Position numbers and translations under genes: made by a program. DNA of 64,000 nt from Begonia masoniana (taxonomy: Eukaryota; Streptophyta; Magnoliopsida; Cucurbitales; Begoniaceae). The notes beneath the pieces are model-generated. The model saw only the letters and a list, made by a program, of their open reading frames with translations, did not search any database and was not told the origin of the DNA. The stretch is taken from assembly GCA_022432975.1 (NCBI GenBank), contig CM039508.1:13282282-13346281 (forward strand), read 5' to 3'. Positions 19,401 through 64,000 of this stretch are shown piece after piece; position 1 is the stretch's first letter, and the number at the start of each line of letters is the position of its first letter.

Positions 19401-19847
19401 TTCAACTTTTTTGGAACCAATTGATCCAAGTGAAGTATCTTATACTTCATCAAATGCATTACTAAGTCTTAATTACGCGTCCATAAAGATTGTTGTGCCC
19501 TCAAAACACATCGTTCTCATCACTTCAAGTTAAAACCTTGAATGTGAAATGGATAACTTAGGTTCGAACAACAACTCATGTAACACTCAATCTCATTTGC
19601 TTGATAAGTTCAACTTTTTTGGAACCAATCGATCCAAGTGAAGTATCTTATACTTCATCAAATGCATTACTAAGTCTTAATTACGCGTCCATGAAGGTTG
19701 TTGGGCCCTCAATACATTTCGTTCTCATCGCTTCAAGTTAAAACGTTGAATGTGAAATGGATATCTTAGGTTCTAACAACAACTCATGTAACTCTCAATC
19801 TCATTTGCTTGATACGTTCAACTTTTTTGGAACCAATCGATCCAAGT

Positions 19848-19950
19848 AATCTTTATGGACGCGTAATTAAGACTTAGTAATGCATTTGATGAAGTATCTT
19901 ATACTTCATCAAATGCATTACTAAGTCTTAATTACGCGTCCATAAAGATT
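19848..19950. repeat. 103-bp perfect palindrome inside the satellite
   Basis: Arms 19848-19897 and 19901-19950 are exact reverse complements (50 bp each) with a 3-bp centre (CTT). The right arm is normal monomer sequence and the left arm is an inverted copy of it. The centre coincides with the dyad GAAGTATCTTATACTTC that every monomer of this variant already has. Confidence 0.95.
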
Positions 19951-24342: not shown

Positions 24343-25628
24343 TGAATAACTTAGGTTCTAACAACAACTCATGTAACACTCAATCTCTTTTGCTTGATAC
24401 GTTCAGCTCTTTTGGAACAAATCGATCCAAGTGAAGTATCTTATACTTCATCAAATGCATTAGTAAGTCTTAATTACGCATCCATGAAGGTTGTTGGGCG
24501 CTCAATACACGTCGTTCTCATCACTTCAAGTTTAAACATTGAATGTGAAATGGATAACTTAGTTTCTAACCACAAGTCATGTAACACTCAACCTTATTTG
24601 CTTGATTCGTTCAGCTCTTTTGGAACAAATCGATCCATGTGAAGTTTCTTATACCTCATCAAACGCATTACTAAGTCTTAATTGCGTGTCCATGAAGGTT
24701 GGTGGGCCCTCAATACACGTCATTCTAATCACTTCAAGCTAAAACCTTGAATATGAAATGGATAACTTAGTTTCTAACACCAACTCATGTAACACTCAAT
24801 CTCATTTGCTTGATACGTTCAGCTTTTTTGGAACAAGTCGATCCAAGTGAAGTATCTTATACTTCACCAAATGCATTACTAAGTATTAATTCTGCCTCCG
24901 TAAAGATTGTTGTGCCCTCAACACACATCGTTCTCATCACTTCAAGCTAAAACCTTGAACTTGAAATGGATAACTTAGTTTCTAATGAATAACTTAGGTT
25001 CTAACAACAACTCATGTAACACTCAATCTCTTTTGCTTGATACGTTCAGCTCTTTTGGAACAAATCGATCCAAGTGAAGTATCTTATACTTCATCAAATG
25101 CATTAGTAAGTCTTAATTACGCGTTCATGAAGGTTGTTGGGCGCTCAATACACGTCGTTCTCATCACTTCAAGTTTAAACATTGAATGTGAAATGGATAA
25201 CTTAGTTTCTAACCACAAGTCATGTAACACTCAACCTTATTTGCTTGATTCGTTCAGCTCTTTTGGAACAAATCGATCCATGTGAAGTTTCTTATACCTC
25301 ATCAAACGCATTACTAAGTCTTAATTGCGTGTCCATGAAGGTTGGTGGGCCCTCAATACACGTCATTCTAATCACTTCAAGCTAAAACCTTGAATATGAA
25401 ATGGATAACTTAGTTTCTAACACCAACTCATGTAACACTCAATCTCATTTGCTTGATACGTTCAGCTTTTTTGGAACAAGTCGATCCAAGTGAAGTATCT
25501 TATACTTCACCAAATGCATTACTAAGTATTAATTCTGCCTCCGTAAAGATTGTTGTGCCCTCAACACACATCGTTCTCATCACTTCAAGCTAAAACCTTG
25601 AACTTGAAATGGATAACTTAGTTTCTAA
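24343..25628 (+). repeat. 643-bp tandem duplication of three satellite monomers
   Basis: 24343-24985 and 24986-25628 are near-identical (offset 643 bp, that is 3 x 208 + 19). They share rare variants such as GCGCTCAATACACG, TTGCTTGATTCG, GGTTGGTGGGCCC and AATTCTGCCTCCGT. At least one difference is visible (ACGCATCCATG versus ACGCGTTCATG). The join at about 24984 (TTTCTAATGAATAACTTAGG) is out of register with the monomer, so this was an unequal event of non-integral length and looks recent. Confidence 0.85.
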
Positions 25629-26447
25629 CCACTAGTCATGTAACACTCAACATCAAGTGAAAAACATGAATGTGAATTAAATAACTTAGGTTCTAACCAC
25701 AAGTCATGTAACACTCAACCTCATTTGCTTGATACGTTTAGCTCTTTTAGAACAAATCGATCCAAGTGAAGTATCTATACTTCATCAAACGCATTACTAA
25801 GTCTTAATTACGCGTCCATAAAGACTATTGTGCGCTCAATACACGTCGTTCTCATGACTTCGAGTTAAAACCTTGAATGTGAAATGGATAACTTAGTTTC
25901 TAAACACAAGTCATGTAACACTCAACCTCATTTGCTTGATACGTTCAGCTCTTTTAGAACAAATCGATACAAGCAAAGTTTATTATACTTCATCAAACGC
26001 ATTACTAAGTCTTAATTACGCGTCCATGAAGGTTTTTAGGGTCCTCAATACACGTCGTTCTCATCACGTCAAGTTAAAACTTTGAATGTGAAATGGATAA
26101 CTTAGGTTCTAACCACAAGTCATGTAACACTCAACCTTTTTTGCTTGATACGTTCAACTCTTTTAGAACAAATCGATTGAAGTGAAGTTTCTTATACTTC
26201 ATCAAACGCATTATTAAGTCTTAATTACGCGTCCGTGAAGGTTGTTGGGCTCTCAATACACATCGTTCTCATCACTTCAAGTTAAAACGTTGAATGTGAA
26301 ATGGATAACTTAGGTTCTAACAACAACTCTTGTAAAACTCAATCTCATTTGCTTGATACGTTCAGCTTTTTTGGAACAAATCGATCCAAGTGAAGTATCT
26401 TATACTTCATCAAATGCATTACTAAGTCTTAATTACGCGTCCATGAA

Positions 26448-27182
26448 TGATGCAAACCTCAACAAACTTGTTGTGAGACCCAACGTCAATAGATGGAATC
26501 AACTTCAGGATCGCCCAATAGTAGTTTGAAAGTGTAGTGACTGATGACCCCGTGGTTATATGACAACCAGAAACCAATAGTATCAAGAAAGGAATATTGA
26601 CCCCGTTTCTATGGAAGAGCAAGAAACCAATATTATAAGAGTTGGAAATCAAGTGGTTGCCCTTGAAATTTCTGCAAGTTCTACAGAAGAACAGTTTGGA
26701 GGAAATTCTCACAAAATAATTTTCATTCTAGTCTGTCTTACAATGAAGAACTCCCAAGTATTTATAGGCTTACAAGAATAGTCTAGAATAGGCATTAAAT
26801 AGCCTTGAAAACATGAGAAAGAACTTTGCTGCTAATATGGTCTAGGTTCAGCCTTCTTGGAAACCATCAAAACACCTTTTGGCCTTCTCTATGCCAATAT
26901 TAAATGCCTAGTGGATGTCACTTCGAAATTCCACTTTCTAGAGCCTTCTTTGCTGAATTTGTGATCCTTTGGGCCTAATCAAACTCCATTTGTATTTGTA
27001 ACACATTAATAACTTTAAAGCTCATTTCTTCCAGTGGTCTAGGTTCTTGAAATAAGTTATTTTGGACTTCTTCTTGAAGTTTCTTGGCCCGATCTCTAGT
27101 GATAGGTCCATTTGGTATATTCAGTTCCATTAAGTATTCTTCTTGGCCCAATTCATATTCAATGCCATCCTTGCCCACATCA
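26448..27182 (-). mobile_element. 3' LTR of gypsy element A
   Basis: On the minus strand it starts TGATGTGGGC at 27182 directly after the purine run GAGCGGGAGAA, and ends GGTTTGCATCA at 26448. The termini form a TGATG/CATCA inverted repeat. Length is 735 bp. A TATA-like TATAAATA lies at 26759-26766 (minus strand), followed by a leader-like region. The end abuts forward satellite (GCGTCCATGAA). The pol frame of element A runs on into the first ~70 codons of this LTR before stopping at 26975. Boundaries are inferred from terminal motifs, since the partner 5' LTR is not present. Confidence 0.75.
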
Positions 27183-32253: not shown

Positions 32254-32256
32254 TTT

Positions 32257-37498: not shown

Positions 37499-37611
37499 TG
37501 ATATGTCCCACATCAGAAATGGAGTGTCTCCTGGCACAAGATATAAGGGCAAGGTCAAACCTCCCCCATTAAGTGCGCTTTTGGGTGGAGTTAGGGTTCT
37601 GTGCCTTATCA
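37499..37611 (+). mobile_element. outer 113-bp TRIM LTR
   Basis: It differs from the 32141 copy by three G-to-A changes (CATCAG, CAAGAT, GCAAGG), one of them in the USE-like motif. It is followed directly by reverse satellite (AAATGAGGTTGAG). No target-site duplicate is recognisable because the left partner end is rearranged. Confidence 0.88.
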
Positions 37612-40600
37612 AAATGAGGTTGAGTGTTACATGACTTGTGGTTAGAAACTAAGTTAACCATTTCACATTCAAGGTTTTAACTTTAAGTGATGAGAACGAC
37701 GTGTATTTAGGGCCCAACAACCTTATTGGACGCGTAATTAAGACAAAGTAATGCGTTTGATGAAGTATAAGAAACTTCACTTGGATCGATTTGTTCCAAA
37801 AGAGTTGAACGTATCAAGCAAATAAGGTTGAGTGTTACATGACTTGTGTTTAGAAACTAAGTTATCAATTTTGACATTCAAGGTTTTAACATGAAGTGAT
37901 GAGAACAACGAGTATTGAGGGCCCAGTAAGCTTCATGGACGCGTAATTAAGACTTAGTAATACATTTGATGACGTATAAGAAACATCACTTGGATCGATT
38001 TGTTCCAAAAGAGCTGAACGTATCAAGCAAATGGGGTTGAGTGTTACATGACTTGTGGTTAGAAACTAAGTTATCCATTTCACATTCAAGGTTTTAACTT
38101 GAAGTGATGAGAACTACGTGTATTGAGCGCCCAACACCCTTTATGGACGCGTAATTAAGAATTAGTAATGCATTTGATGAATTATAAGAAACTTCACTTG
38201 GATCGATTTGTTCCAAAAAAGCTGAACGTATCATGCAAATAAGGTTGAGTGTTACATGACTTGTGGTTAGAAACTAAGTTGTCCATTTCACATTCAACGT
38301 TTTAACTTGAAGTAATGAGAACGACATGTATTGAGGGCTCAACAACCTTCATGGACGCATAATTTAGACCTAGTAATGCATTTGATGAAGTATAAGATAC
38401 TTCACTTGGATCGATTTGTTCCAAAAGAGCTGAACGTATCAAGCAAATGAGATTGAGTGTTACATGAGTTGTTGTTAGAACCTAAGTTATCCATTTCACA
38501 TTCAAGGTTTTAACTTGAAGTTATGAGAACGACGTGTATTGATGGCCCAACAACCTTCACGGATGCGTAATTAAGACTTAGCAATGCGTTTGATGAAATA
38601 TAAGAAACTTCACTTCAATCGATTTGTTCCAAAAGAGTTGAACGTATCAAGCAAATAAGGTTGAGTGTTATATGACTTGTGGTTGGAACCTAAGTTAACC
38701 ATTTCACATTAATGGTTTAAACTTAAAGTGATGAGAACGATGTGTATTGAGGACCCTACAACCTTCATGGACGCGTAATTAAGACTTAGTAATGCGTTTG
38801 ATAAATTATAAGATACTTCACTTGGATCGTTTTGTTCCAAAAGAGCTGAACGTATCAAGCAAATGAGATTGAGTGTTACATGAGTCGTTGTTAGAACCTA
38901 AGTTATCCATTTCACATTCAAGGTTTTAACTTGAAGTGATGAGAACGACGTGTATTGAGGGCCCAACAACCTTCATGGACACGTAATTAAGACTTAGTAA
39001 TGCATTTGATGAAGTATAAGATACTTCACTTGGATCGATTTGTTCCAAAAGAGCTGAACGTATCAAACAAATGAGATTGAGTGTTACATGAGTTGTTGTT
39101 AATTTATCCATTTCACATTCAAGGTTTTAACTTGAAGTGATGAGAATTACGTGTATTGAGGACCCAACAACCTTCATGGACGCGTAATTAAGACTTAGTA
39201 ATGCGTTTAATGAACTATAATAAACTTCGCTTGGATCGATTTGTTCCAAAATAGCTGAACGTATCATGCAAATGAGGTTGAGTGTGACATGACTTCTGGT
39301 TAGAACCTAAGTTATCCATTTCACATTCAAGGTTTTAACTTGAAGTGATGAGAACGACGTGTACTAAGGACCAACAACTTTCATGGATGCGTAATTAAGA
39401 CTTAGTAATGCGTTTGTTGAAGTATTAGAAACTTCACTAGGATCGATTTGTTCCAAAAGAGCTGAACGTATCAAGCAAATGAGGTTGAGTGTTACTTGAC
39501 TTTTGGTTAGAACCTAAGTTATCCATTTCACATTCAAGGTTTTAACTTGAAGTTATGAGAACGACGTGTAATGATGGCCCAACAACCTTCACGGACGCGT
39601 AATTAAGACTTAGCAATGCGTTTGATGAAATATAAAAAACTTCACTTCAATCGATTTGTTCCGAAAGAGTTGAACGTATCAAGCAAATAAGGTTGAGTGT
39701 TATATGACTTGTGGTTGGAACCTAAGTTATCCATTTCACATTGGAGGTTTTAACTTGATGTGATGAGAACGATGTGTATTGAGGACCCTACAACCTTCAT
39801 GGACGCGTAATTGAGACCTAGTAAAACGTTTGATGAAGTATAAGATACTTCACTTGGATCGATTTGTTCCGAATGTGCTAAACGTATCAAGCAAATGGGG
39901 TTGAGTGTTACATGACTTGTGGATAGAAACTAAGTTATCCATTTCACATTCACGGTTTTAACTTGAAGTGATGAGAACGACATGTATTAAGGGCCCAACA
40001 ACCTTAATGGATGCGTAATTAAGACTTAGTAATGCGTTTGATGATGTATAAGAAACTTCACTTGAATCGATTTGTTCCAAAAGAGCCGAATGTGCCAAGC
40101 AAATGAGGTTGAGTATTACATGACTTGTGGTTAGAAACTAAGTTATCCATTTCACATTCAAGGTGTTAACCTGAAGTGATGAGAACGACGTATATTGAGG
40201 GCTCAACACCCTTTATGGACGCGTAATTAAGACTTTGTAATGCATTTGATGAAGTATAAGAAACTTCACTTTAATCGATTTGTTCCAAAAGAGTTGAACG
40301 TATCAAGCAAATAAGGTTGAATGTTACATGACTTGTAGTTGGAACCTAAGTTATCCATTTAACATTAAAGATTTTAACTTGAAGTGATAAGAACGACGTG
40401 TATTGAGGGCCCAACAACCTTTATGGACGCGTAATTAAGACTTAGTAATGCGTTTGATGAAGTATAAGAAACTTCACTTCCATCGATTTGTTCCAAAAGA
40501 GCTGAACGTATCAAGCAAATGAGGTTGAGTGTTACATGAGTTTCTGTTAGAACCTAAGTTATCCATTTCACATTCAATGTTTTAACTTGAAGTGATGAGA

Positions 40601-43600
40601 ACGATGTGTATTGAGGACCCAACAACCTTCATGGACGCGTAATTAAGACTTAGTAATGCGTTTGATGAAGTATAAAAAACTTCACTTGGATCGATTTGTT
40701 CTAAAAGAGATGAACGTATCAAGCAAATGAGGTTGAGTGTTACATGACTAGTGGTTAGAACCTAAGTTATTCAATTCATATTTAAGTTTTTAACTTGAAG
40801 TGATGAGAACGACGTGTATTGGGGGTCAAACAACCTTCATGGACGCATAATTAAGACTTAGTAATGCGTTTGATGAAGTATAAGAAACTTCACTTCGATC
40901 GATTGTTTCTAAAAGAGCTGAACGTATCAAGCAAATGAGGTTGAGTGTTACACGACTTGTGGTTAGAAACTAAGTTAACCATTTCACATTCAAGGTTTTA
41001 ACTTTAAGTGATGAGAACGACGTGTATTTAGGGCCCAACAACCTTATTGGACGCGTAATTAAGACAATGTAATGTGTTAGACGAAGTATAAGAAACTTCA
41101 CTTGTATCGATTTGTTCCAAAAGGGTTGAACGTATCAAGCAAAAAAGGTTGAGTGTTACATGACTTGTGTTTAGAAACTAAGTTATCAATTTTGACATTC
41201 AAGGTTTTAACATGAAGTGATGAGAACTACGAATATTGAGGGCCCAATAACCTTCATGGACACGTAATTAAGACTTAGTAATACATTTGATGACGTATAA
41301 GAAACTTCACTTGGATCGATTTGTTCCAAAAGAGCTGAACGTATCAAGCAAATGGGGTTGAGTGTTACATGACTTGTGATTAGAAACTAAGTACTCCATT
41401 TCACATTCAAGGTTTTAACTTGAAGTGATGAGAACTACTTGTATTGAGGGCCCAACACCCTTTATGGACGCGTAATTAAGACTTAGTAATGCATTTGATG
41501 AAGTATAAGAAACTTCACTTGGATCGATTTTTTCCAAAAGAGCCGAACGTATCAAGCAAATAAGGTTGAGTGTTACATGACTTGTGGTTAGAAACTAAGT
41601 TATTCATTTCACATTCAACGTTTTAACTTGAAGTGTTGAGAACGACGTGTATTGAGGGCTCAACAACCTTCATCGACGCGTAATTAAGACTTAGTAATAC
41701 ATTTGATGAAGTATAAGATACTTCACTTGGATCGATTTGTTACAAAAGAGCTGAACGTATTAAGCAAATGAGATTGAGTGTTACATGAGTTGTTGTTAGA
41801 ACCAAAGTTATCCATTTCACTTTCAAGGTTTTAACCTGAACTGATGAGAACGACGTGTATTGAGGGCCCAAAAACCTTCATGGACGCGAAATTAAGACTT
41901 AGTAATGCGTTTGATGAAGTATAAGAAACTTCACTTCAATCGATTTGTTCCAAAAGAGTTGAACGTATCAAGCAAATAAGGTTGAGTGTTACATGACTTG
42001 TGGTTGGAACCTAAGTTATCCATTTCACATTAAAGGTTTAAACTTAAAGTGAGGAGAACAATGTGTATTGAGGACCCTACAACCTTCATGGACGCGTAAT
42101 TATGACTTAGTAATGCTTTTGATAAATTATAAGATACTTCACTTGGATCGATTTGTTCTAAAAGAGCTGAACGTATCAAGCAAATGAGATTGAGTGTTAC
42201 ATGAGTCGTTTTTAGAACCTAAATTATCCATTTCACATTCAAGGTTTTAACTTGAAGTGATGAGAACGACGTGTATTGAGGGCCCAACAACCTTCATGGA
42301 CGCGTAATTAAGACTTACTAATGCGTTTGTTGAAGTATAAGAAACTTCACTTCAATCGATTTGTTCCAAAAGAGTTGAACGTATCAAGCAAATAAGGTTG
42401 AGTGTTACATGACTTGTGGTTAGAACCTAAGTTATCCATTTCACATTCAAGGTTTTAACTTGAGGTGATGAGAACGACGTGTATTGAGGACCCAACAACC
42501 TTCATGGACGCATAATTAATATTTAGTAATGCGTTTGATGAAGTATAATAAACTTCGCTTGGATGGATTTGTTCCAAAAGTGTTGAACATATAAAGCAAA
42601 TGAGGTTAAGTGTTACATGACTTGTAATTAGAAACTAAGTTATCCATTTCACATTCAAGGTTTTAACTTGAAGTGATGAGAACGACGAGTATTGAGGGCC
42701 CAATAACCTACATGGACGCGTAATTAAGACTTAGTAATGCATTTGATGACGTATAAGAAACTTCACTTCAATCGATCTGTTCTAAAAGAGGTGAACGTAT
42801 CAAGCAACTAAGGTTGAGTGTTACATGACTTGTGATTAGAACCTAAGTTATCCATTTCACATTCAAGGTTTTAACTTGAAGTGATGAGAACGACGTGTAT
42901 TCAGGACCCAACAACCTTCATGGACGCATAATTAAGATTTAGTAATGCGTTTGATGAAGTATAATAAACTTCTCTTGGATCGATTTGTTCCAAAAGTGTT
43001 GAACGTATAAAGCAAATGAGGTTAAGTGTTACATGACTTGTGTTAAGAAACTAAGTTATCCATTTCACATTCAAGGTTTTAACTTGAAGTGATGAGAACG
43101 ACGAGTATTGAGGGCCCAATAACCTTCATGGACGCGTAATTAAGACTTAGTAATGCATTTGATGACGTATAAGAAACTTCACTTCAATCGATCTATTCTA
43201 AAAGAGGTGAACGTATCAAGCAACTAAGGTTGAGTGTTACATGACTTGTGATTAGAACCTAAGTTATCCATTTCACATTCAAGGTTTTAACTTGAAGTGA
43301 TGAGAACGACGTGTATTGAGTACCCAATAACCTTCATGGACGCGTAATCAAGACTTAGTAATGTGTTTGATGAAGTATAATAAACTTCGCTTTGATCGAT
43401 TTGTTCCAAAAGAGCTGAACGTATCAAGCAAATGAGGTTGAGTGTTACATGACTTGTGTTTGGAAACTAAGTTATCCATTTCACATTCAAGGTTTTAACT
43501 TGAAGTGTTGACAATGACATGTATTGAGGGCCCAATAACCTTCATGGATGCGTAATTAAGACTTAGTAATGCGTTTGATGAAGTATAAGGAACTTCATTT

Positions 43601-46600
43601 GGATCGATTTTTTCCAAAAGAGCTGAACGTATCAAGCAAATGAGCTTGAGTGTTACATGACTTGTGGTCGGAAACTAAGTTATCCATTTCACATTCAATG
43701 TTTTAACTTGAAGTAAAAAGAACAACATGTATTGAGGGCCCAACAACCTTCAAGGATGCGTAATTAAGACATAGTAATGCGTTTGATGAAGTATAAGAAA
43801 CTTCACTTAAATCGATTTGTTATAAAAGTGCTGAACGTATCAAGCAAATGAGGTTGAGTGTTACATGACTTAAGGTTAGAACCTAAGTTATCCAATTCAT
43901 ATTCAAGTTTTTAACTTGATGTTTATTGTTACATGACTAGTGGTAAGAAACTAAGTTATCCATTTCACATTCAAGGTTTTAGCTTGAAGTGATGAGAACG
44001 ACGTATCAAGCAAATAAGGTTTAGTGTTACATGACTTGTGGTTAGAACCTAAGTTATCTATTTCACATTTAAGTTTTTAACTTGAAGTGAAGAAAACGAC
44101 GTGTATTGAGGACACAACAACCTTCATGGACACGTAATTAAGACTTAGTAATGCGTTTGATAAAGTATAAGAAACTTCACTTGAATCGGTTTGTTCCAAA
44201 AGTGCTGAACGTATCAACCAAATGAGGTTGAGTGTTACATGACTTGTGGTAAGAAACTAAATTATCCATTTCACATTCATGGTTTTAACTTGAACTGATG
44301 AGAACGACGTGTATTGAGGGCACAACAATCTTTATGGACGGGTAATTAAGACTTAGTAATGCATTTGATGAAGTATAAGATACTTCACTTTGATCGATTT
44401 GTTCCAAAAAAGCTGAACGTATCAAGCAATTGAGATTTAGTGTTACATGAGTTGTTGTTAGAACCTCAGTTATCCATTTCACATTCAACGTTTTAACTTG
44501 AAGTGATGAGAGTGACGTGTATTGAGGAACCAACAACCCTCATGGACACGTAATTAAGACTTAGAAATGCGTTTGATGAAGTATAATAAACTTCGCTTGG
44601 ATCGATTTGTTCCAAAAGAGCTGAACGTATCAAGCAAATGAGGTTGAGTGTTACAGGATTTGTGTTTAGAAATTAAGTTATCCATTTCACATTCAAGGTT
44701 TTAACTTGAAGTGATGAGAACGACGTGTATTGAGGGCCCAACAACCTTCAAGGACACGTAATTAAGACTTAGTAATGCGTTTGATGAAGTATAAGAAACT
44801 TCACTTGAATCGATTTGTTATGAAAGAGCTGAACGTATCAAGCAAATGAGGTTGAGTGTTACATGACTTAAGGTTAGAACCTAAGTTCTCCTATTCACAT
44901 TCAAGTTTTTAACTTGATGTTTATTGTTACATGACTAGTGGTAAGAAACTAAGTTATCCATTTCACATTCAAGGTTTTAGCTTGAAGTGATGAGAACGAC
45001 GTGTATTGACGACCCAAAAACCTTCATGGACGCGTAATTAAGACTTAGTAATGCATTTGATGAAGCATAAGAAACTTCACTTGGATCGATTTGTTCCAAA
45101 ATAGCTAAACCTATCAAGCAAATGAGTTTGAGTGTTACATGACTTGTGGTTAGAAACTAAGTTATCCATTTCACATTCAAGGTTTTAACTTGAAGTGATG
45201 AGAACGACGTGTATTGAGGGCACAAGAATCTTTATGGACGCGTAATTTAGACTTAGTAAGGCATTTGATGAAGTATAAGAAACTTCACTTGGATCGATTT
45301 GTTCCAAAAGAGCTGAACGTATTAAGCAAATGAGGTTGATTGTTACAAGACTTGTGGTTAGAACTTAAGTTATTTAATTCACATTCAAGTTTTTAACTTG
45401 AAGTGATGAAAACGATATGTATTGAGTGCCCAATAACCTTCATGGACGCGTAATTAAGACTTTGTAATGCGTTTGATGGAGTATAAGATACTTCATTTCA
45501 TTCGATTTGTTCCAAAAAAGTTGAACGTATCAAGCAAATAAGGTTGAGTGTTACATGACTTGTGGTTAGAACCTAAATTATCCATTTCACATTCAAGGTT
45601 TTAACTCAAAGTGATGAGAATGACGTGTATTGAGGACCCAACAACCTTCATGGACGCGTAATTAAGACTTACTAATGCGTTTGATGAAAAATATGAAACT
45701 TCACTTCAATCGATTCGTTATGAAAGAGTTGAACGTATCAAGCAAATAAGGTTGAGTGTTATATGACTTGTGGTTAGAAACTAAGTTATCCATTTCACAG
45801 TTCAATGTTTAACTTGAAGTGATGAGAACGACGTGTATTGAGGACCCAACAACCTTCATGGACGCGTAATTAAGACTTACTAATGCCGTTTGATGAAGTA
45901 TAAGAAACTTCCTTGGATCGATTTGTTCCAAAAGAGCTGAACGTATCAAGCAAATGAGGTTGAGTGTTACATGACTTGTGGTTAGAAACTAAGTTATCCA
46001 TTTCACATTCAGGTTTAACTTGAAGTGATGAGAACGACGTGTATTGAGGGCCCAACAACCTTCATGGACGCGTAAGTTAAGACTTAGTAATGCATTTGAT
46101 GAAGTATAAGAACTTCACTTGGATCGGTTTGTTCCAAAAGAGCTGAACGTATCAAGCAAATGAGGTTGAGTGTTACATGACTTGTGGTTAGAAACTAAGT
46201 TATCCATTTCACATTCAATGTTTTAACTTGAAGTGATGAGAACGACGTGTATTGAGGGCCCAACAACCTTATGGACGCGTAGTAGAGACTTAGTAATGCA
46301 GTTGATGAATGTATAGATACTTCACTTGGATCGATTTGTTCCAAAAGAGCTGAACGTATCAAGCAAATGAGGTTGAGTGTTACATACTTGTGGTTGAACA
46401 AAGTCATCCATTTCACATTCAAGGTTTAAGCTTGAGGTGAGAGACGACGTGTATTGAGTACCCAACAACCCTTCTTGGGACGCGTAAGTAGACTTAGTAA
46501 TGCGTTTGATGAAGTAGAAGAAACTTCACTTGGATCTATTTGTTCCAAAAGAGCTGAACGTATCAAGCAATGAGGTTGAGTGTTATAGGACGTGGGGTTA

Positions 46601-49600
46601 TAACTAAGTTATTCTATTCACATTCAATGTTTTAACTTGAAGTCATTAGAACGACTTGTAATTGAGGGCCCAACAACCTTTATGGACGCGTAATGTTGAG
46701 ACTTAGGTTAATGCATTTGATGAAGTATAAGAATACTCACTTGAATCGATTTGTTCCAAAAAAGCTGAACGTATCAAAGCAAATGAGGTTGAGTTTTGCA
46801 TGAGTTTTTGGTTAAAACCTAAGTTATCCATTCACAATTCAAAGGTTTAACTTAAAGAGATGAGAACGACTTGTATTGAGGACCCAACAACCTTCATGGA
46901 CGCATAATTAATATTTAGTAATGCGTTTGATGAAGTATAAGAAACTTCACTTGGATCGATTTGTTCCAAAAGTGTTGAACATATAAAGCAAATGAGGTTA
47001 AGTGTTACATGACTTGTAATTAGAAACTAAGTTATCCATTTCACATTCAAGGTTTTAACTTGAAGTGATGAGAACGACGTGTATTGAGGGCCCAATAACC
47101 TTCATGGACGCGTAATTAAGACTTAGTAATGCATTTGATGACGTATAAGAAACTTCACTTCAATCGATCTGTTCTAAAAGAGGTGAACGTATCAAGCAAC
47201 TAAGGTTGAGTGTTACATGACTTGTGATTAGAACCTAAGTTATCCATTTCACATTCAAGGTTTTAACTTGAAGTGATGAGAACGACGTGTATTGAGGACC
47301 CAACAACCTTCATGGACGCGTAATTAAGACTTAGTAATGCATTTGATGACGTATAAGAAACTTCACTTGGATCGATTTTTTCCAAAAGAGCTGAACGTAT
47401 CAAGCAAATGAGGTTAAGTGTTACATGACTTGTGATTAGAACCTAAGTTATCCATTTCACATTCAAGGTTTTAACTTGAAGTGATGAGAACGACGAGTAT
47501 TGAGGGCCCAATAACCTTCATGGACGCGTAATTAAGACTTAGTAATGCATTTGATGACGTATAAGAAACTTCACTTCAATCGATCTATTCTAAAAGAGGT
47601 GAACGTATCAAGCAACTAAGGTTGAGTGTTACATGACTTGTGATTAGAACCTAAGTTATCCATTTCACATTCAAGGTTTTAACTTGAAGTGATGAGAACG
47701 ACGTGTATTGAGGGCCCAATAACCTTCATGGACGCGTAATTAAGACTTAGTAATGCGTTTGATGAAGTATAATAAACTTCGCTTTGATCGATTTGTTCCA
47801 AAAGAGCTGAACGTATCAAGCAAATAAGGTTGAGTGTTACATGACTTGTGGTTAGAAACTAAGTTATCCATTTCACATTCAAGGTTTTAACTTGAAGTGT
47901 TGACAATGACATGTATTGAGGGCCCAATAACCTTCATGGACGCGTAATTAAGACTTAGTAATGCGTTTGATGAAGTATAATAAACTTCGCTTTGATCGAT
48001 TTGTTCCAAAAGAGCTGAACGTATCAAGCAAATGAGGTTGAGTGTTACATGACTTGTGGTCGGAAACTAAGTTATCCATTTCACATCAAGGTTTTAACTT
48101 GAAGTGATGAGAACGACGTGTATTGAGGGCCCAACAACCTTCATGGACGCGTAATTAAGACTTAGTAATGCGTTTGATGAAGTATAAGAAACTTCACTTA
48201 AATCGATTTGTTATAAAAGTGCTGAACGTATCAAGCAAATGAGGTTGAGTGTTACATGACTTGTGGTTAGAACCTAAGTTATCCATTTCACATTCAAGGT
48301 TTTAACTTGATGTTTATTGTTACATGACTTGTGGTTAGAAACTAAGTTATCCATTTCACATTCAAGGTTTTAGCTTGAAGTGATGAGAACGACGTATCAA
48401 GCAAATAAGGTTGAGTGTTACATGACTTGTGGTTAGAACCTAAGTTATCCATTCACATTCAAGGTTTTAACTTGAGTGATGAGAACGACGTGTATTGAGG
48501 ACCCAACAACCTTCATGGACGCGTAATTAAGACTTAGTAATGCGTTTGATGAAGTATAAGAAACTTCACTTGGATCGATTTGTTCCAAAAGAGCTGAACG
48601 TATCAAGCAAATGAGGTTGAGTGTTACATGACTTGTGGTTAGAAACTAAGTTATCCATTTCACATTCAAGGTTTTAACTTGAAGTGATGAGAACGACGTG
48701 TATTGAGGGCCCAACAACCTTCATGGACGCGTAATTAAGACTTAGTAATGCGTTTGATGAAGTATAAGATACTTCACTTGGATCGATTTGTTCCAAAAAA
48801 GCTGAACGTATCAAGCAAATGAGGTTGAGTGTTACATGACTTGTGGTTAGAACCTAAGTTATCCATTTCACATTCAAGGTTTTAACTTGAAGTGATGAGA
48901 ACGACGTGTATTGAGGACCCAACAACCTTCATGGACGCGTATTAAGACTTAGTAATGCGTTTGATGAAGTATAAGAAACTTCACTTGGATCGATTTTTTC
49001 CAAAAGAGCTGAACGTATCAAGCAAATGAGGTTGAGTGTTACATGACTTGTGGTTAGAAACTAAGTTATCCATTTCACATTCAAGTTTTTAACTTGAAGT
49101 GATGAGAACGACGTGTATTGAGGACCCAACAACCTTCATGGACGCGTAATTAAGACTTAGTAATGCGTTTGATGAAGTATAAGAAACTTCACTTGGATCG
49201 ATTTGTTCCAAAAGAGCTGAACGTATCAAGCAAATGAGGTTGAGTGTTACATGACTTGTGGTCGGAAACTAAGTTATCCATTTCACATTCAAGGTTTTAA
49301 CTTGAAGTGATGAGAACGACGTGTATTGAGGGCCCAACAACCTTCATGGACGCGTAATTAAGACTTAGTAATGCGTTTGATGAAGTATAAGAAACTTCAC
49401 TTGGATCGATTTGTTCCAAAAAAGCTGAACGTATCAAGCAAATGAGGTTGAGTGTTACATGACTTAAGGTTAGAACCTAAGTTATCCATTCACATTCAAG
49501 TTTTTAACTTGATGTTTATTGTTACATGACTAGTGGTAAGAAACTAAGTTATCCATTTCACATTCAAGGTTTTAGCTTGAAGTGATGAGAACGACGTGTA

Positions 49601-52600
49601 TTGAGGACCCAACAACCTTCATGGACGCGTAATTAAGACTTAGTAATGCATTTGATGAAGTATAAGAAACTTCACTTGGATCGATTTGTTCCAAAAAAGC
49701 TGAACGTATCAAGCAAATGAGGTTGAGTGTTACATGACTTGTGGTTAGAAACTAAGTTATCCATTCACATTCAAGGTTTTAACTTGAAGTGATGAGAACG
49801 ACGTGTATTGAGGGCCCAACAACCTTCATGGACGCGTAATTAAGACTTAGTAATGCATTTGATGAAGTATAAGAAACTTCACTTGGATCGATTTGTTCCA
49901 AAAGAGCTGAACGTATCAAGCAAATGAGGTTGAGTGTTACATGACTTGTGGTTAGAAACTAAGTTATCCATTTCACATTCAGGTTTTAACTTGAAGTGAT
50001 GAGAACGACGTGTATTGAGGGCCCAACAACCTTCATGGACGCGTAATTAAGACTTAGTAATGCATTTGATGAAGTATAAGAAACTTCACTTGGATCGATT
50101 TTTTCCAAAAGAGCTGAACGTATCAAGCAAATGAGGTTGAGTGTTACATGACTTGTGGTTAGAACCTAAGTTATCCATTTCACATTCAAGTTTTTAACTT
50201 GAAGTGATGAGAACGACGTGTATTGAGGACCCAACAACCTTCATGGACGCGTAATTAAGACTTAGTAATGCGTTTGATGAAGTATAAGAAACTTCACTTG
50301 GATCGATTTGTTCCAAAAAAGCTGAACGTATCAACCAAATGAGGTTGAGTGTTACATGACTTGTGGTAGAACTAAGTTATCCATTCACATTCAAGGTTTT
50401 AACTTGAAGTGATGAGAACGACGTGTATTGAGGGCCCAACAACCTTCATGGACGCGTAATTAAGACTTAGTAATGCATTTGATGAAGTATAAGAAACTTC
50501 ACTTGATCGATTTGTTCCAAAAGAGCTGAACGTATCAAGCAAATGAGGTTGAGTGTTACATGACTTGTGGTTAGAAACTAAGTTATCCATTTCACATTCA
50601 AGTTTTTAACTTGAAGTGATGAGAACGACGTGTATTGAGGGCCCAACAACCTTCATGGACGCGTAATTAAGACTTAGTAATGCGTTTGATGAAGTATAAG
50701 ATACTTCACTTGGATCGATTTGTTCCAAAAGAGCTGAACGTATCAAGCAAATAAGGTTGAGTGTTACATGACTTGTGGTTAGAACCTAAGTTATCCATTC
50801 ACATTCAAGGTTTTAACTTGAAGTGATGAGAACGACGTGTATTGAGGACCCAACAACCTTCATGGACGCGTAATTAAGACTTAGTAATGCGTTTGATGAA
50901 GTATAAGAAACTTCACTTGGATCGATTTGTTCCAAAAGAGCTGAACGTATCAAGCAAATAAGGTTGAGTGTTATATGACTTGTGGTTAGAAACTAAGTTA
51001 TCCATTCACATTCAAGGTTTTAACTTGAAGTGATGAGAACGACGTGTATTGAGGACCCAACAACCTTCATGGACGCGTAATTAAGACTTAGTAATGCGTT
51101 TGATGAAGTATAAGAAACTTCACTTGGATCGATTTGTTCCAAAAGAGCTGAACGTATCAAGCAAATGAGGTTGAGTGTTACATGACTTGTGGTTAGAAAC
51201 TAAGTTATCCATTTCACATCAAGGTTTTAACTTGAAGTGATGAGAACGACGTGTATTGAGGGCCCAACAACCTTCATGGACGCGTAATTAAGACTTAGTA
51301 ATGCGTTTGATGAAGTATAAGAAACTTCACTTGGATCGATTTGTTCCAAAAGAGCTGAACGTATCAAGCAAGTGAGGTTGAGTGTTACATGACTTGTGGT
51401 TAGAAACTAAGTTATCCATTTCACATTCAATGTTTTAACTTGAAGTGATGAGAACGACGTGTATTGAGGACCCAACAACCTTCATGGACGCGTAATTAAG
51501 ACTTAGTAATGCATTTGATGAAGTATAAGAAACTTCACTTGGATCGATTTGTTCCAAAAAAGCTGAACGTATCAAGCAAGTGAGGTTGAGTGTTACATGA
51601 CTTGTGGTTAGAAACTAAGTTATCCATTTCACATTCAAGGTTTCAGCTTGAAGTGATGAGAACGACGTGTATTGAGGACCCAACAACCTTCATGGACGCG
51701 TAATTAAGACTTAGTAATGCGTTTGATGAAGTATAAGAAACTTCACTTGGATCGATTTGTTCCAAAAAAGCTGAACGTATCAAGCAAATGAGGTTGAGTG
51801 TTATATGACTTGTGGTTAGAAACTAAGTTATCCATTTCACATTCAAGTTTTAACTTGAAGTGATGAGAACGACGTGTATTGAGGGCCCAACAACCTTCAT
51901 GGACGCGTAATTAAGACTTAGTAATGCATTTGATGAAGTATAAGAAACTTCACTTGGATCGATTTGTTCCAAAAAAGCTGAACGTATCAAGCAAATGAGG
52001 TTGAGTGTTACATGACTTGTGGTTAGAACCTAAGTTATCCATTTCACATTCAAGGTTTTAACTTGAAGTGATGAGAACGACGTGTATTGAGGGCCCAACA
52101 ACCTTCATGGACGCGTAATTAAGACTTAGTAATGCGTTTGAAAAACTATAAAAAACTTAACTTGGATCGATTTGTTCTAAAACTGCTGAACGTATCAAGC
52201 AAATGAGGTTGAGTGTTACATGACTTGTGATTAGAAACTAAGTTATCCATTCACATTCAAGGTTTTAACTTGAAGTGATGAGAACGACGTGTATTGAGGG
52301 CCCAACAACCTTCATGGACGCGTAATTAAGACTTAGTAATGCGTTTGATGAAGTATAAGAAACTTCACTTGGATCGATTTGTTCCAAAAGAGTTGAACGT
52401 ATCAAGCAAGTGAGGTTGAGTGTTACATGACTTGTGGTTAGAAACTAAGTTATCCATTTCACATTCAAGGTTTTAACTTGAAGTGATGAGAACGACGTGT
52501 ATTGAGGACCCAACAACCTTCATGGACGCGTAATTAAGACTTAGTAATGCATTTGATGAAGTATAAGATACTTCACTTGGATCGATTTGTTCCAAAAGAG

Positions 52601-53244
52601 TTGAACGTATCAAGCAAATGAGGTTGAGTGTTACATGACTTGTGGTTAGAAACTAAGTTATCCATTTCACATTGAAGGTTTTAACTTGAAGTGATGAGAA
52701 CGACGTGTATTGAGGACCCAACAACCTTCATGGACGCGTAATTAAGACTTAGTAATGCGTTTGATGAAGTATAAGATACTTCACTTGGATCGATTTGTTC
52801 CAAAAGAGTTGAACGTATCAAGCAAATGAGGTTGAGTGTTACATGACTTGTGATTAGAAACTAAGTTATCCATTTCACATTCAATGTTTTAACTTGAAGT
52901 GATGAGAACGACGTGTATTGAGGACCCAACAACCTTCATGGACGCGTAATTAAGACTTAGTAATGCGTTTGATGAAGTATAAGATACTTCACTTGGATCG
53001 ATTTGTTCCAAAAAAGCTGAACGTATCAAGCAAATAAGGTTGAGTGTTACATGACTTGTGGTTAGAAACTAAGTTATCCATTTCACATTCAAGGTTTTAA
53101 CTTGAAGTGATGAGAACGACGTGTATTGAGGGCCCAACAACCTTCATGGACGCGTAATTAAGACTTAGTAATGCGTTTGATGAAGTATAAGAAACTTCAC
53201 TTGGATCGATTTGTTCCAAAAGAGCTGAACGTATCAAGCAAGTG
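37612..53244 (-). repeat. 208-bp satellite array, reverse orientation (right block)
   Basis: The same monomer as 2781-26447 but inverted, about 75 copies. From 37.6 to about 45.8 kb the monomers are variable. 45.88-46.9 kb is rich in one-base indels. From about 46.9 kb to the end monomers become very uniform. Shared truncation junctions (TTAACTTGATGTTTATTGTT near 43.9, 44.9, 48.3 and 49.5 kb; GAGAACGACGTATCAAGC near 43.99 and 48.39 kb) mark segmental copies with an offset of about 4.39 kb. It contains no gene. Confidence 0.97.
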
Positions 53245-57834: not shown

Positions 57835-58302
57835 AGTCCGTTAAATTTATTAACTCCGTTTACTAATAAGTTTGTTCTTGTGCATGAAAGTAAAAAAGAT
57901 GAATTTGCTAAGAAATTTCATTCAATGGTAAGACTTATTTTTAAACCCGGAGATTTGGTTTGGCTACGTCTACAAAAAGAAAGATTTTTGAACGAACAGA
58001 ACAACAAACTACAACCTCGAGGAGATAGACATTTTCAAGTCCTAGAGTGTATCAACGATATCGATTACAAGATCGACCTACCGAGTGAATACGGTAATGT
58101 AAGCACATATTTTAATTTTACTAACTTATTTTTATATGATGCAGGAGATTCGAGGATGAATCTTTTCGAAGGGGGAGGGAATGATGTGAACCGAGGAGCG
58201 ATAAATCTCATTTTCAAGGACCATGATCTATTAGAAGATAAAGGAGGTCTAACGAACAAAGCTTCACATGGTTTAGTCTTGGAAGCCCGAAGAAAAGAGT
58301 AA
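57835..58302 (+). pseudogene. integrase C-terminal fragment of gypsy element C
   Basis: The open frame from 57880 (with recognisable sequence slightly upstream) contains GDLVWLRLQKERF, LQPRGDRHFQVL, INDIDYKIDLP, VSTYFNFTNLF and GDSRMNLFEGGGNDV, matching in order the C-terminal part of element A's integrase ([43 protein letters not shown]). No zinc finger or DDE core is present. The frame overlaps the polypurine tract and the first ~40 codons of the 3' LTR. It is inactive, since it is fused to an RT scrap by an internal deletion. Confidence 0.8.
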
Positions 58303-59332
58303 TCACAACAAAAGCACAAGACTATAAAAATAAAGAGTTTTGTAGCATGAAAGTGGGCCCCACGAACTTGGCAAAAGAAGACCCATAAGACACGGAGTTG
58401 GGCCCCACAAATACTAATGGATTGGAGAGAGAAGGGTAAAGATTCACGGAAATTACAAAGAGATAAAGATTCACGTGGGTTGGAAAGAGATAAAGCTCCA
58501 CATGACTTGGTTTATGATGTGATCTAAATTGAGACCAGTTCAAAGCCCAAGAACAAGGATCCAATTGAAGATACAGGCAGCCCAATGACAAGAGCAAGAA
58601 GTCCAAGATTATTGTAAGATCTTTTGAAGAAAGGGAGGTGCGACGCACATGCACATGTAAGAATTAAAAACACATGTGTCATGCACATGCACATGTAGGA
58701 ATTAAACAGGACATGCGCCAAGCACATGCATATACGAGGAATTAAAAAGTCACATGCAAAGTACATGCAAATCATACAAATCTCGTAGGAAAAGATCTTA
58801 TCCAACAGAATCTACTCAAATCAATTCAAATCATATTCAAACGTAGTTTAAACGTGAGATGATATCTGGTCATGCCAAGGATCATTATCTCATGATTTTA
58901 TTAGTTATTTTATTTTTATTTTCGTTTTTTTAAATTATTTATTTTAATTTTAATGTGTAGCCTATTTAATGGCTAACTATTTGATTTAATAGAAGAACAA
59001 GTTTGAATAAAAAATTGAGTTTTTTAGAGAAGATTTCTCTTTGGTTCTTTGCGAGAACCACGATCTTCTTCAAGTCACACTTGAAGAATCTCGCTTGATA
59101 GCTTTGGTTCTTAACAACGAGTTTGGTTTGGGTCAAGCTCCTGTTTTGATAGCTTTGGTTCAGCCAACAGGTGTGGCTCGGGTCAAACTCCTGTTTTGAT
59201 AACTAAGGTTCCATCGAATTCTTTGATTGAGGTCTTAGTTCCTTACTTTGTTCTTGAATCGAAAAGGCATTCCTTTGAATTATTCCGCGTTGTTGTCGAG
59301 TCCCGGGTCCTTTCGATCCGAGGTTGGCATCA
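58182..59332 (+). mobile_element. 3' LTR of gypsy element C
   Basis: It starts TGATGTGAACC right after the purine tract GAAGGGGGAGGGAA and ends GGTTGGCATCA; the TGATG/CATCA ends match element A's LTR style. Length is 1,151 bp. Within it: three imperfect repeats around GCACATGCACATGTAGGAAT (58640-58760), a TATA-like CCTATTTAATGG near 58969, and two or three tandem copies of a ~55-bp unit with TTGATAGCTTTGGTTC (59094-59210). The final ~270 bp is homologous to the end of the solo LTR at 61103-61875. Reverse satellite follows at once. Confidence 0.75.
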
Positions 59333-61102
59333 GTTTTTACTTGAAGTGATGAGAACGACGTGTATTAAGGACCCAATAACCTTCATGGACGAGTAATTCA
59401 GACTTAGTAATGCGTTTGATAAAGTATAACAAACTTTACTTCAATCGATTTGTTCAAAAAGAGCTGAACGTATCAAGTAAATGAGGTTGAGAGTTACATG
59501 ACTTGTGGTTAGAACCTAAGTTATCCATTTCACATTCAAGGTTTTTACTTGAAGTGATGAAAACGACGTGTATTGAGGACCCAATAACCTTCATGGATGA
59601 GTAATTCAGACTTAGTAATGTGATTGATGAAGTATAAGAAACTTTACTTCAATCGATTTGATCCAAAAGAGCTGAACTTATCAAGCAAATGACGTTGAGA
59701 GTTACATGACTTGTGGTTAGAACCTAAGTTATCCATTTCACATTCAAGGTTTTTACTTGAATTGATGAGAACAACGTGTATTGAGGACCCAATAACCTTT
59801 ATGGACGAGTAATTAAGACTTAGTAATGCGTTTGATGAAGTATAAGAAACTTTACTTCAATCGATTTGTTCCAAAAGAGCTGAACGTATCAAGCAAATGA
59901 GGTTGAAAGTTACATGACTTGTGGTTAGAACCTAACCTTAATGGACGCGTAATTGAGACCTAGTAATGCATTTGATGAAGTATAAGAAACTTCACTTGGA
60001 TCGATTTTTTCAAAAAGAACTGAACGTATCAAGCAAATGAGGTTGAGTGTTACATGACTTGTGGTTAGAACCTAAGTTATCCATTTCACATTCAAGGATT
60101 TAACTTGAAGTAATGAGAACAATGTGTATTGAGGACCCAACAACGTTCATGGTAGCGTAATTAAGACTTATTATAGCGTTTGATGAAGTATAAGAAACTT
60201 CAATTCAATCGATTTATTCCAAAAGAACTAAACGTATCAAGCAAATGAGGTTGAGTGTTACATGACTTGTGGTTAGAACCTATGTTATCCATTTAACATT
60301 TAAGGTTTTAACTTGAAGTTATGAGAACGACGTGTATTGAGGACCCAACAACCTTCATGGACGCGTAATTTAGACTTAGTAATGCGTTTGATGAAGTATA
60401 AGAAACTTCAATTCAATCGATTTATTCCAAAAGAACTAAACGTATCAAGCAAATGAGGTTGAGTGTTACATGACTTGTGGTTAGAATCTAAGTTATCCTA
60501 ATCACATTCAAGGTTTTTACATGAAGTGATGAGAACGACGTGTATTGAGGACCTAACAACGTTCATGGACGGGTAATTAAGATTTATTAATGCCTTCGAT
60601 GAAGTGTAAGAAACTTCAATTCAATCGATTTATTCCAAAAGAACTAAACGTATCAAGCAAATGAGGTTTAGTGTTACATGACTTGTGGTTAGAACCTATG
60701 TTATCCATTTCACATTCTAGATTTTAACTTGAAGTGATAAGAACGACGTGTATTGAGGACCCAACAACCTTCATGGACGCGTAATTAAGACTTAGTAATG
60801 CGTTTGATGAAGTATAAGAAACTTCAATTCAATTGATTTATTCCAAAAGAATTAAACGTATCAAGCAAATGAGGTTGAGTGTTACATGACTTGTGGTTAG
60901 AATCTAAGTTATCCTAATCACATTCAAGGTTTTTACTTGAAGTGATGAGAACGACGTGTATTGAGGACCAAACAACGTTCATGGACGGGTAATAAAGACT
61001 TATTAATGCCTTCGATGAAGTATAAGAAATTTCAACTCAATCGATTTTTTCCAAAAGAACTAAACGTATCAAGCAAATGAGGTTGAGTGTTACATGACTT
61101 TT
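59333..61102 (-). repeat. 208-bp satellite, reverse orientation
   Basis: About 8.5 monomers, more diverged from the main blocks (ATTCAATCGATTTATTCC, GAACTAAACG, GACGAGTAATTCAGAC). One internal deletion joins GAACCTA to ACCTTAATGG at about 59936. It contains no gene. Confidence 0.95.
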
Positions 61103-61875
61103 TGATGAGAACCACGGGTATATGAAACCCGAGACCCTTCAACAACGCGGAATAGAAACTCAGGAACGCCTTTGAAATAAAGTATAAGGAACTTGAACCC
61201 AATCGAACCTTGCCGACGGAACCAAAGTAATCAAACAAGGAGCTTGAACCGTAACCAAACTTGTGGTTAAAACCAAAGCTATCAAGTTGATCTTTCAAGT
61301 TTTTGACTTGAAGAAGATCTAGTTCTTCACAAAGAACAAAAGAGAAAATTCTCACAAACAGTAACTCAAAATCATGTATATTGTTTTTTTTAATAATGTT
61401 GAAGCGCCTATGCCTTTAAATAGGCTACAAAATATCCTAAAAATAATTAGGACCAATATTACTAAAACGATAATTAGGAAACTTTCTAAAACAATACTTA
61501 GAAAACTTTCTAAATCTATGATTAGGAAAGCTTTCTAAAACTATAATTTAAGAACTTTCTAAACTATAATTAAGAAACTTTCTAAAATTACGCGATCCAG
61601 CCCACTATAGAAACCTTTGAGAAGTAGTCCATTATCTTTGAACATGTGCTTGATCCTCCATTTATGCCTCACCTTAAAAAATGTCATAATGTAAGGGATG
61701 CTGAATTGAAGATGTGATCTCCGTAAAACATGTTTCTAAATGAAGAACTACAATATTTTGACTTTGATTTTGTCTTTGGGCTTGAGCTTGGTTGCACCTT
61801 GATTCACATTAGGGCCTCCTTATTAGATGGATTATGGTCCTTGACATTGGCTTGGACATATCTTGGTACGTATCA
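61103..61875 (-). mobile_element. solo LTR, relative of elements A and C, inserted in satellite
   Basis: On the plus strand it begins TGATGAGAACC and ends GGTACGTATCA (minus-strand LTR TGATACG...CTCATCA), 773 bp, with TGAT/ATCA inverted ends. Flanks are CTTTT (61098-61102) and TTTTT (61876-61880) within a satellite motif that elsewhere reads GACTTTTGGTTAG, consistent with a 5-bp target duplication with one later change. It contains a TATTTAAA box (minus, about 61414-61422) and imperfect copies of AAACTTTCTAAAACTATAAT (61450-61590). There is no internal domain. Its terminal 210 bp (61104-61313) aligns over full length with the 208-bp satellite monomer. Confidence 0.8.
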
Positions 61876-62640
61876 TTTTTGGTTAGAACCTATGTTATCC
61901 ATTCACATTCAAGGTTTTAACTTGAAGTGATGAGAACGACTGTATTGAGGAGCCAAAAACCTTCATGGACGCGTAATTAAGGACTTAGTAATGCATTTGA
62001 TGAAGTATTAGAAACTTCAATTCAATTGATTTATTCCAAAATAACTGAACGTATCAAGCAAATGAGGTTGAGTGTTACATGACTTGTGGTTTAAAACCTA
62101 AGTTATCCTAATCACATTCAAGGTTTTTACTTGAAGTGATGAGAACGACGTGTATTGAGGACCCAACAACCTTCATGGACGCGTAATTAAGACTTAGTAA
62201 TGCGTTTGATGAAGTATAAGAAACTTCAATTCAATCGATTTATTCCAAAAGAACTAAACGTATCAAGCAAATGAGGTTGAGTGTTACATGACTTGTGGTT
62301 AGAACCTATGTTATCCATTTCACATTCAAGGTTTTAACTTGAAGTGATGAGAACGACGTGTATTGAGGACCCAACAACCTTCATGGACGCGTAATTAAGA
62401 CTTAGTAATGCGTTTGATGAAGTATAAGAAACTTCAATTCAATTGATTTATTCCAAAAGAACTAAACGTATCAAGCAAATGAGGTTGAGTGTTACATGAC
62501 TTGTGGTTAGAACCTATGTTATCCATTTCACATTCAAGGTTTTAACTTGAAGTGATGAGAACGACGTGTATTGAGGACCCAACAACCTTCATGGACGCGT
62601 AATTAAGACTTAGTAATGCGTTTGATGAAGTATAAGAAAC
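61876..62640 (-). repeat. 208-bp satellite, reverse orientation
   Basis: About 3.7 monomers of the same subtype as 59333-61102, resuming at GGTTAGAACC after the solo LTR and ending at GAAGTATAAGAAACTT, where LTR-derived repeats begin. Confidence 0.95.
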
Positions 62641-62815
62641 TTTCTAAAACTATAATTAAGAAACTTTCTAAAACTATAATTAAGAAACTTTCTAAAACTA
62701 TAATTAAGAAACTTTCTAAAACTATAATTAAGAAACTTTCTAAAATTACGCGATCCAGCCCACTATAGAAACCTTGAGAATATCCCATTATCTTTGAACA
62801 TGTGCTTGATCGTTC
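62641..62815. mobile_element. LTR fragment at satellite orientation switch
   Basis: About 4.5 copies of a 24-bp unit (AAACTTTCTAAAACTATAAT + TAAG), then TTACGCGATCCAGCCCACTA and a further ~60 bp. It is colinear with about 61530-61655 of the solo LTR, with small deletions. Reverse satellite lies before and forward satellite after. Both joins fall on shared words: TAAGAAACTT on the left, TGCTTGAT on the right. Confidence 0.8.
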
Positions 62816-64000
62816 AGCTCTTTTGGAACAATCGATTGAAGTAAGTTTCTTATACTTCATCAAACGCATTACTAAGTCTTAATTACTCGTCCATGAAGGT
62901 TATTGGGTCCTCAATACACGTCGTTCTCATCACTTCAAGTAAAAACCTTGAATGTGAAATGGATAACTTAGGTTCTAACCACAAGTCATGTACACTCAAC
63001 CTCATTGCTTGATACGTTCAGCTCTTTTGGAACAAATCGATTGAAGTAAGTTTCTTATACTTCATCAAACGCATTACTAAGTCTGAATTACTCGCCCATG
63101 AAGGTTATTGGGTACTCAATACACGTCGTTCTCATCACTTCAAGTAAAAACCTTTAATGTGAAATGGATAACTTAGGTTCTAACCACAAGTATGTACACT
63201 CAACCTCATTTGCTTGATACGTTCAGCTCTTTTGGAACAAATCGATTGAAGTAAAGTTTCTTATACTTCGTCAAACGAATTACTAAGTCTGAATTACTCG
63301 TCCATGAAGGTTATTAGGTCCTCAATAAACGTCGTTCTCATCACTTCAAGTAAAAACCTTGAATGTGAAATGGATAACTTAGGTGTTCTAACCACAAGTC
63401 ATGTACACTCAACCTCATTTGCTTGATACGTTCAGCTCTTTTGGAACAAATCGATTGAAGTAAAGTTTCTTATACTTCGTCAAACGAATTACAAAGTCTG
63501 TATTACTCGTCCATGAAGGTTCTTGGGTCCTCAATACACGTCTTTCTCATGACTTCAAGTTAAAACCTTAAATGTGAAATGGATAACTTAGGTTCTAACG
63601 ACAAGTCATGTACACTCAACCTCATTTGCTTGATACGTTAAGCTCTTTTGAAACAAATCGATTAAGTAAAGTTCTTATACTTCATTAGAACGCATTACTA
63701 AGCCTGAATTACTCGTCCATGAAGGTTATTGGGAACTCAATACACGTCGTTCTCATCACTTCAAGTAAAAACCTTGAATGTGAAATGGATAACTTAAGTT
63801 CTAACCACAAGTCATGTAACACTCAACCTTATTTGCTTGATGCGTTCAGCTCTTTTGGAACAAATCGATTGAAGTAAAGTTTCTTATACTTCACCAAACG
63901 CATTACTAAGTCTTAATTACTCGCCCATGAAGGTTATTGGGTCCTCAATACACGTCGTTCTCGTCACTTTAAGTTAAAACCTTGAATGTGAAATGGATAA
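62816..64000 (+). repeat. 208-bp satellite, forward orientation, to window end
   Basis: About 5.7 monomers of the GATTGAAGTAAAGTTTC / TTACTCG(T/C)CCATGAAGG subtype, which is the reverse complement of the subtype at 59333-60000. It continues beyond the window. Confidence 0.95.

Follow-up and report, generated by a model that had tools for sequence, protein, structure and literature searches.

Probable descent of a 208-bp satellite of Begonia masoniana from the U5 end of a Ty3/gypsy LTR

The sequence from which a satellite arose is often past recognition. Segments of LTRs are named as one satellite source in a 2025 review (PMC12628747, in excerpt), and in maize the tandem repeats CRM1TR and CRM4TR were made from LTR-region sequence of centromeric retrotransposons of the Ty3/gypsy type (PMC3648361, in excerpt). 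The sobo satellite of wild potato is similar to the LTRs of a gypsy element (cited through the same excerpt), and the Ogre-derived satellites of Lathyrus sativus, also seeded by LTR retrotransposons, form long arrays in primary constrictions (PMC7004042, in excerpt). The 208-bp satellite of Begonia masoniana described here is like CRM1TR and CRM4TR in that its apparently LTR-derived arrays hold other inserted retrotransposons. However, as far as these excerpts describe them, CRM1TR and CRM4TR monomers consist of LTR plus UTR, whereas the 208-bp monomer corresponds to U5 alone and ends where the LTR ends; CRM1TR occupies two neighbouring loci on one chromosome, whereas the satellite here is found on at least 12 contigs. 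Beside these maize repeats, the LTR family that we call S is about 28-31% diverged from the monomer consensus. The sobo monomer is a 4.7-kb composite, against 208 bp here, and the Lathyrus seeds, in the same excerpted accounts, were short tandem repeats that pre-existed in the Ogre 3' UTR, against a single-copy U5 end here. LTR-derived satellites are already known; what is new here is a U5-only monomer bounded by the LTR terminus. In the literature searched, which left most subscription papers outside it, we found no earlier report of the 208-bp satellite.

The window analysed is a stretch of 64,000 nucleotides on contig CM039508.1 (C7:13282282-13346281), and genome searches covered the 795-Mb assembly. 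Head-to-tail arrays of uniform 208-bp period occupy 43 kb of the window, as the initial annotation had estimated: block coordinates give 43,044 bp and blastn coverage gives 43,057 bp. They run in both orientations and are broken up by gypsy elements. The arrays, and the solo LTR that drew attention to their origin, are as follows:

2773..26447, minus strand: 208-bp satellite array L
37612..53241, plus strand: 208-bp satellite array M
59333..61102, plus strand: satellite array N1
61876..62642, plus strand: satellite array N2
62799..64000, minus strand: satellite array N3, running on past the window end
61103..61875, minus strand: solo LTR of gypsy family S, 773 bp, TGATACGTACC...GGTTCTCATCA, with TG...CA ends, sitting within a monomer
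61103..61313, minus strand: U5 end (terminal 211 bp) of the solo LTR, end-to-end homologue of one satellite monomer

The 208-bp satellite very probably goes back to the terminal 211 bp of U5 in a Ty3/gypsy LTR of the S lineage. The terminal 210 bp or so of the solo LTR had been aligned by eye with one monomer, end to end, at 65-70% identity, and global alignment of the 211-bp tail bears this out, giving 148/213 identities (69.5%) with the monomer consensus; the tail meant is the same, although it runs from 61103 to 61313 and not from 61104. With the monomer at 62137-62344, which blastn of the LTR against the window matched at E 4e-21, the tail shares 153/213 identities. The consensus was built from an automatic list of 187 monomers, one row of which was the LTR tail itself; of the 186 left after its removal, the 182 of 203-212 bp were used for trees and for comparison with S tails. 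Local scores between solo LTR and monomer were 93-95 (93 for the whole LTR), against a mean of 20.1 and maxima of 29 (matching orientation) and 33 (opposite orientation) in 300 dinucleotide shuffles of the whole LTR, and the score of the tail alone was reached by 0/300 shuffles. The remaining 562 bp of the LTR were at chance against the monomer (122/300 and 265/300 shuffles under two scorings). A loose scoring (5/-4/-10/-2) was set aside, its alignments being over-long.

The monomer boundary CTCATCA/CTTCAAG had also been said to coincide with the LTR terminus CTCATCA. The likeness does stop there and spans one period (211 versus 208 bp), but the coincidence is partly definitional, the phase of the monomers having been set from the LTR-monomer alignment. 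The monomer keeps 10 of the 11 bases of the S terminus. A TGATGNNAACC-like motif, matching at 8 or more of 9 positions, is weak evidence by itself, because 57/1000 shuffled monomers contain one somewhere. The identity of about 70% between solo LTR and monomer marks an old common ancestor.

The solo LTR of the window entered the array later and is not the ancestor of the satellite. It is flanked by CTTTT and TTTTT, a 5-bp target duplication with one mismatch, and its insertion site reads ACATGACTTGTGG elsewhere; the exact empty-site word is absent from every monomer of the window, which makes the duplication imperfect evidence. The LTR was inserted out of phase with the LTR-monomer match, and recombination at this locus therefore does not explain the match.

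A homologous U5 end is found in three LTR families besides S:

58182..59332, plus strand: 3' LTR of gypsy family A, TGATGTGAACC...GGTTGGCATCA, its R-U5 homologous to S
59095-59201: 50-bp duplication in the family A LTR, 2.1 copies
26448..27182, minus strand: 3' LTR of gypsy family B, TGATGTGG...GGTTTGCATCA, a distant homologue of the S tail
162.1 and 175.6 kb of the joined coordinate: family C LTR pair, in the 200 kb downstream of the window

Over R-U5, the family A LTR can be aligned with the solo LTR from one end to the other (298/470 columns), confirming the shared terminal region that the initial annotation had described; the tandem duplication noted within it is present, but its unit is not the reported length of about 55 bp. 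Mean tail identities are 0.707 for S-A, 0.702 for S-C and 0.507 for B-S, and with the satellite 0.646 for S, 0.578 for C, 0.515 for A and 0.421 for B. When the last 11 bp were left off the tails, 0/1000 shuffles reached the scores of S-A, S-B and A-satellite and 15/1000 that of B-satellite (both scorings). Under strict scoring the A LTR was near chance against the monomer (z 1.5; 7/300 shuffles for the A tail), and the B tail was not above chance (217/300).

Family S is dispersed over many contigs, with at least 40 near-full-length matches at 95-100% (40 scored of 2,522 candidates), and family A likewise (40 scored of 2,525). One S element, L009, has paired LTRs, a PPT GAAGGGAAAGGGAA, a PBS-like TTTGGTATCAGAGC and a 5-bp TSD GAAAG/GAAAG; another, L012, has paired LTRs and a PBS and lacks a TSD. 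At L041 and L042, S LTRs are followed by satellite-like DNA. A letter pattern combining an LTR boundary with satellite-like sequence had 31 forward and 41 reverse matches in the genome and 0 in the control; seven of these 72, examined in full, were six S-type LTRs and one satellite, and the other 65 were judged from 27 letters only. LTR ends closer to the monomer than the window copy do exist, as had been envisaged: of 15 S tails, which include two copies of the window's own insertion, the closest has 155/214 identities (72.4%) with the consensus, compared with 148/213 for the window copy, and is 73.8% identical to its nearest monomer. A parent near-identical to the monomer was not among these 15 tails, 72.4% to the consensus being the maximum. 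The members of LTR pairs differ at 3/822 and 3/798 positions in two S loci and at 5/1143 in one A element, or about 0.004, against a K2P distance of 0.30-0.36 from tail to monomer; the satellite is therefore much older than such S and A copies.

As regards mechanism, the match has its outer edge at the LTR terminus and its inner edge at CTT/CTTCAAG in U5. We propose that the terminus CTCATCA was joined to the internal U5 site CTTCAAG, which would have given a head-to-tail unit, and that long arrays on many chromosomes grew from this unit as it was amplified and homogenised; S, A, B and C elements would afterwards have come into the arrays, the window's solo LTR being one case. We infer that the founding junction arose by illegitimate recombination or through a small circle, with unequal exchange or rolling-circle amplification to follow. 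In S, A and C, RNA folding predicts a hairpin whose 5' arm contains the inner edge, with equally good folds in 4/200 (S), 6/200 (A) and 2/200 (C) shuffles; the monomer junction is also predicted to fold (2/200 shuffles as well). In a more specific and rather doubtful version, the founding unit would have been a small circle of retrotransposon cDNA, about 210 bp long, in which an integrase-processed U5 end was joined at the hairpin-arm site and which was rolled out into a pericentromeric or centromeric satellite now receiving insertions from its recently active parent clade. Its U5 end would be the exact CA terminus, without the two bases that precede the primer site. This version fits because the junction lies at the exact LTR terminus and hairpins are predicted at the inner boundary in S, A and C, but ordinary illegitimate recombination suits the same facts too.

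The direction from LTR to satellite can be strongly inferred. The opposite course, in which an ancestral LTR took up one monomer at its 3' end and then spread it, has precedent in the few reported cases of satellite uptake by transposable elements (PMC3648361, in excerpt), and unrooted distances by themselves are compatible with it; even so, we regard it as improbable. The tail is common to four LTR families, although only distantly in B, and the likeness between LTRs extends upstream of the boundary: over the 120 bp upstream of the inner edge, the LTR-LTR scores were reached by 0 (S-A), 6 (S-C) and 4 (A-C) of 1000 mononucleotide shuffles, whereas the same 120 bp had no likeness to the preceding monomer (942, 843 and 504 of 1000 shuffles for S, A and C). 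A match of one period is automatic if the unit derived from the LTR; it is a coincidence if an LTR captured array DNA, all the more as the captured period would have had to end at a working LTR terminus. Furthermore, S elements stand at loci without recognisable satellite: at seven distinct S places (L003, L004, L005, L006, L009, which holds L007 and L008, L011 and L012) there was no monomer match of 75% or more, weaker matches being filtered out. An LTR origin is thus much the likelier direction, because the single-period match ends at the LTR terminus, the LTR likeness continues past the inner boundary and S is dispersed.

Trees built from the tails and monomers are supportive of an LTR origin, not decisive, and their root is fragile, as it hangs on one distant outgroup, B. 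The largest tree comprised 9 S, 7 A, 2 C and 1 B tails with 26 monomers. With B as outgroup, it makes the satellite sister to S, the family of the solo LTR (92/94), so that the monomers join LTR ends and do not group with a non-LTR source; together with a tail score far above the shuffles, this supports the original suggestion that the satellite is amplified LTR U5. In the same tree, sat+A (AU 0.019) and S+C (0.034) were rejected, and sat+C (0.178) and S+A (0.093) stand unrejected. Without B, the split is sat+S versus A+C (95/99), and none of sat+A (0.069), sat+C (0.219), S+A (0.18) and S+C (0.144) was rejected. Two smaller trees leave the root unsettled, which is to that extent compatible with the reverse direction. 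When each LTR family was represented by a single tail, the best tree puts the satellite with B (94/86), sat+S not being favoured (AU 0.201; sat+A 0.275); with more S and A tails, S+A is weakly favoured (71/46), and neither sat+S (0.474) nor sat+A (0.447) is rejected. When these two trees are rooted on the LTRs, the sampled L, M and N3 monomers and two of the six from N1 form a derived group (100/98 and 97/92), and the remaining N1 and N2 monomers lie nearer the LTRs. Four of the six sampled N1 monomers are thus among those placed closest to the LTRs in the satellite tree, the other two joining N3. The N2 monomer at 62137-62344 is the nearest of the 182 monomers for 15/15 S-family tails.

Local gene conversion between the solo LTR and its adjoining monomers might have made the resemblance. 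The most LTR-like full-length monomers do adjoin the solo LTR (71.8%), and an S-family LTR fragment is spliced into the array at 62633-62811. However, S tails of other contigs match equally well, averaging 66-69% over 182 monomers with a best of 73.8%, and full-length matches in arrays L and M, kilobases off, reach 67.8-70.4% among the matches listed; we therefore give local conversion very little credence. Both sequences are A+T-rich, but chance or composition-driven similarity is the least credible account of all, the score being reached by 0/300 and 0/1000 dinucleotide shuffles.

A genome search with monomer 62137-62344 placed the satellite on at least 12 contigs (C1, 2, 3, 4, 5, 7, 8, 10, 11, 12, 13 and 15), with at least 147 matches from 40 scored of 3,326 candidates. 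Beyond the window it covers 130.7 of 200 kb, a stretch that includes 5,000 N. The matches cluster, for example at C7 13.3-14.1 Mb and C5 19.3-20.3 Mb, with outliers at C5 0.8 and 33.1 Mb and C7 0.5 Mb, and these clusters suggest a pericentromeric or centromeric place. Copies within 1 Mb of satellite numbered 9/31 for S and 6/33 for A, values reached by 2 and 46 of 5000 rough simulations, which count LTR pairs twice and assume 50 Mb for some contigs (C1 is 84.9 Mb). This clustering test used 49 of the 147 satellite match rows and the 40 full rows each for S (of 2,522 candidates) and A (of 2,525), and drops 9 S and 7 A copies on contigs without a listed satellite row or in C7 13.2-13.6 Mb. An exact 23-mer of the satellite had 0 matches in viral contigs.

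In plants, the CRM clade of chromoviruses has TGATG and T/CATCA LTR ends and a tRNA-Met primer site, and in CRM group A the coding region extends into the 3' LTR (PMC3059260, in excerpt). Both CRM-like termini are present in the window's A and B LTRs, whereas S reads TGATA...CATCA and C ends in TATCA. A similar coding run-in is seen in B, whose pol reading frame extends 208 bp into the 3' LTR, and in A, where a frame with an integrase-type SH3 domain extends 121 bp (both stop-to-stop). After an LTR end in S, A and C stands TGGTATCAGAGC or TGGTATCAAAGC, which we take to be the tRNA-Met primer site. A Pfam chromodomain was not matched at E 0.001 in four proteins. Judged on these motifs and frames, the elements appear to have CRM-clade hallmarks in part, which are clearest in A and B.

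One genome here contains both a likely source clade and its satellite product: the monomer is one definable LTR block with the LTR terminus as its boundary, and the source clade includes young copies. With the LTR ends as outgroup, the satellite's own tree can be rooted, and models of satellite birth can be tested at one precise junction. Should CENH3 be located on the arrays, this would be a further case in which a retrotransposon end has renewed a centromeric repeat, as has been proposed for maize (PMC3648361, in excerpt).

Several further observations concern the elements and arrays themselves. At L012:3925-5451 two S LTRs face each other head to head; a few primer-site bases come after the first, and then the inverted second copy. 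The 5-bp target duplication CTTTC/GAAAG is shared by two elements of different families, L009 and that in the joined region 242749-247997, and that of the window's solo LTR reads CTTTT; a target preference is possible. The S-family fragment at 62633-62811, about 180 bp without LTR ends, matches 61475-61655 at 90.7% and lies where the array flips orientation; both joins fall, by eye, at short shared words (TAAGAAACTT, TGCTTGAT), as in template-switch repair. Part of array M (48392-53241) has a 415-bp dimeric period at 96-97%, versus 85% for the 208-bp period across the whole array. A 60-bp tandem repeat of about 61 copies at 98% occupies 53728-57375, near sequence of the TGTAACGACCC type, which begins at the edge of the satellite at about 53245. 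Short LTR-like repeats of about 115 bp, TGATATGTCCC...CTTATCA, lie at 31784-32268 and 37242-37611; the primer-site-like TTTGGTATCAGAGC separates the copies, which recalls a miniature, TRIM-like element, and by eye the same sequence follows the 5' LTR of L009. Finally, about 210 kb away, L010 (C7:13551000-13559500) is an inverted duplicate of the window end (family A LTR 99.5%, solo LTR 98.5%), and its monomers at 305-2618 are full of small indels, which looks like unpolished assembly.
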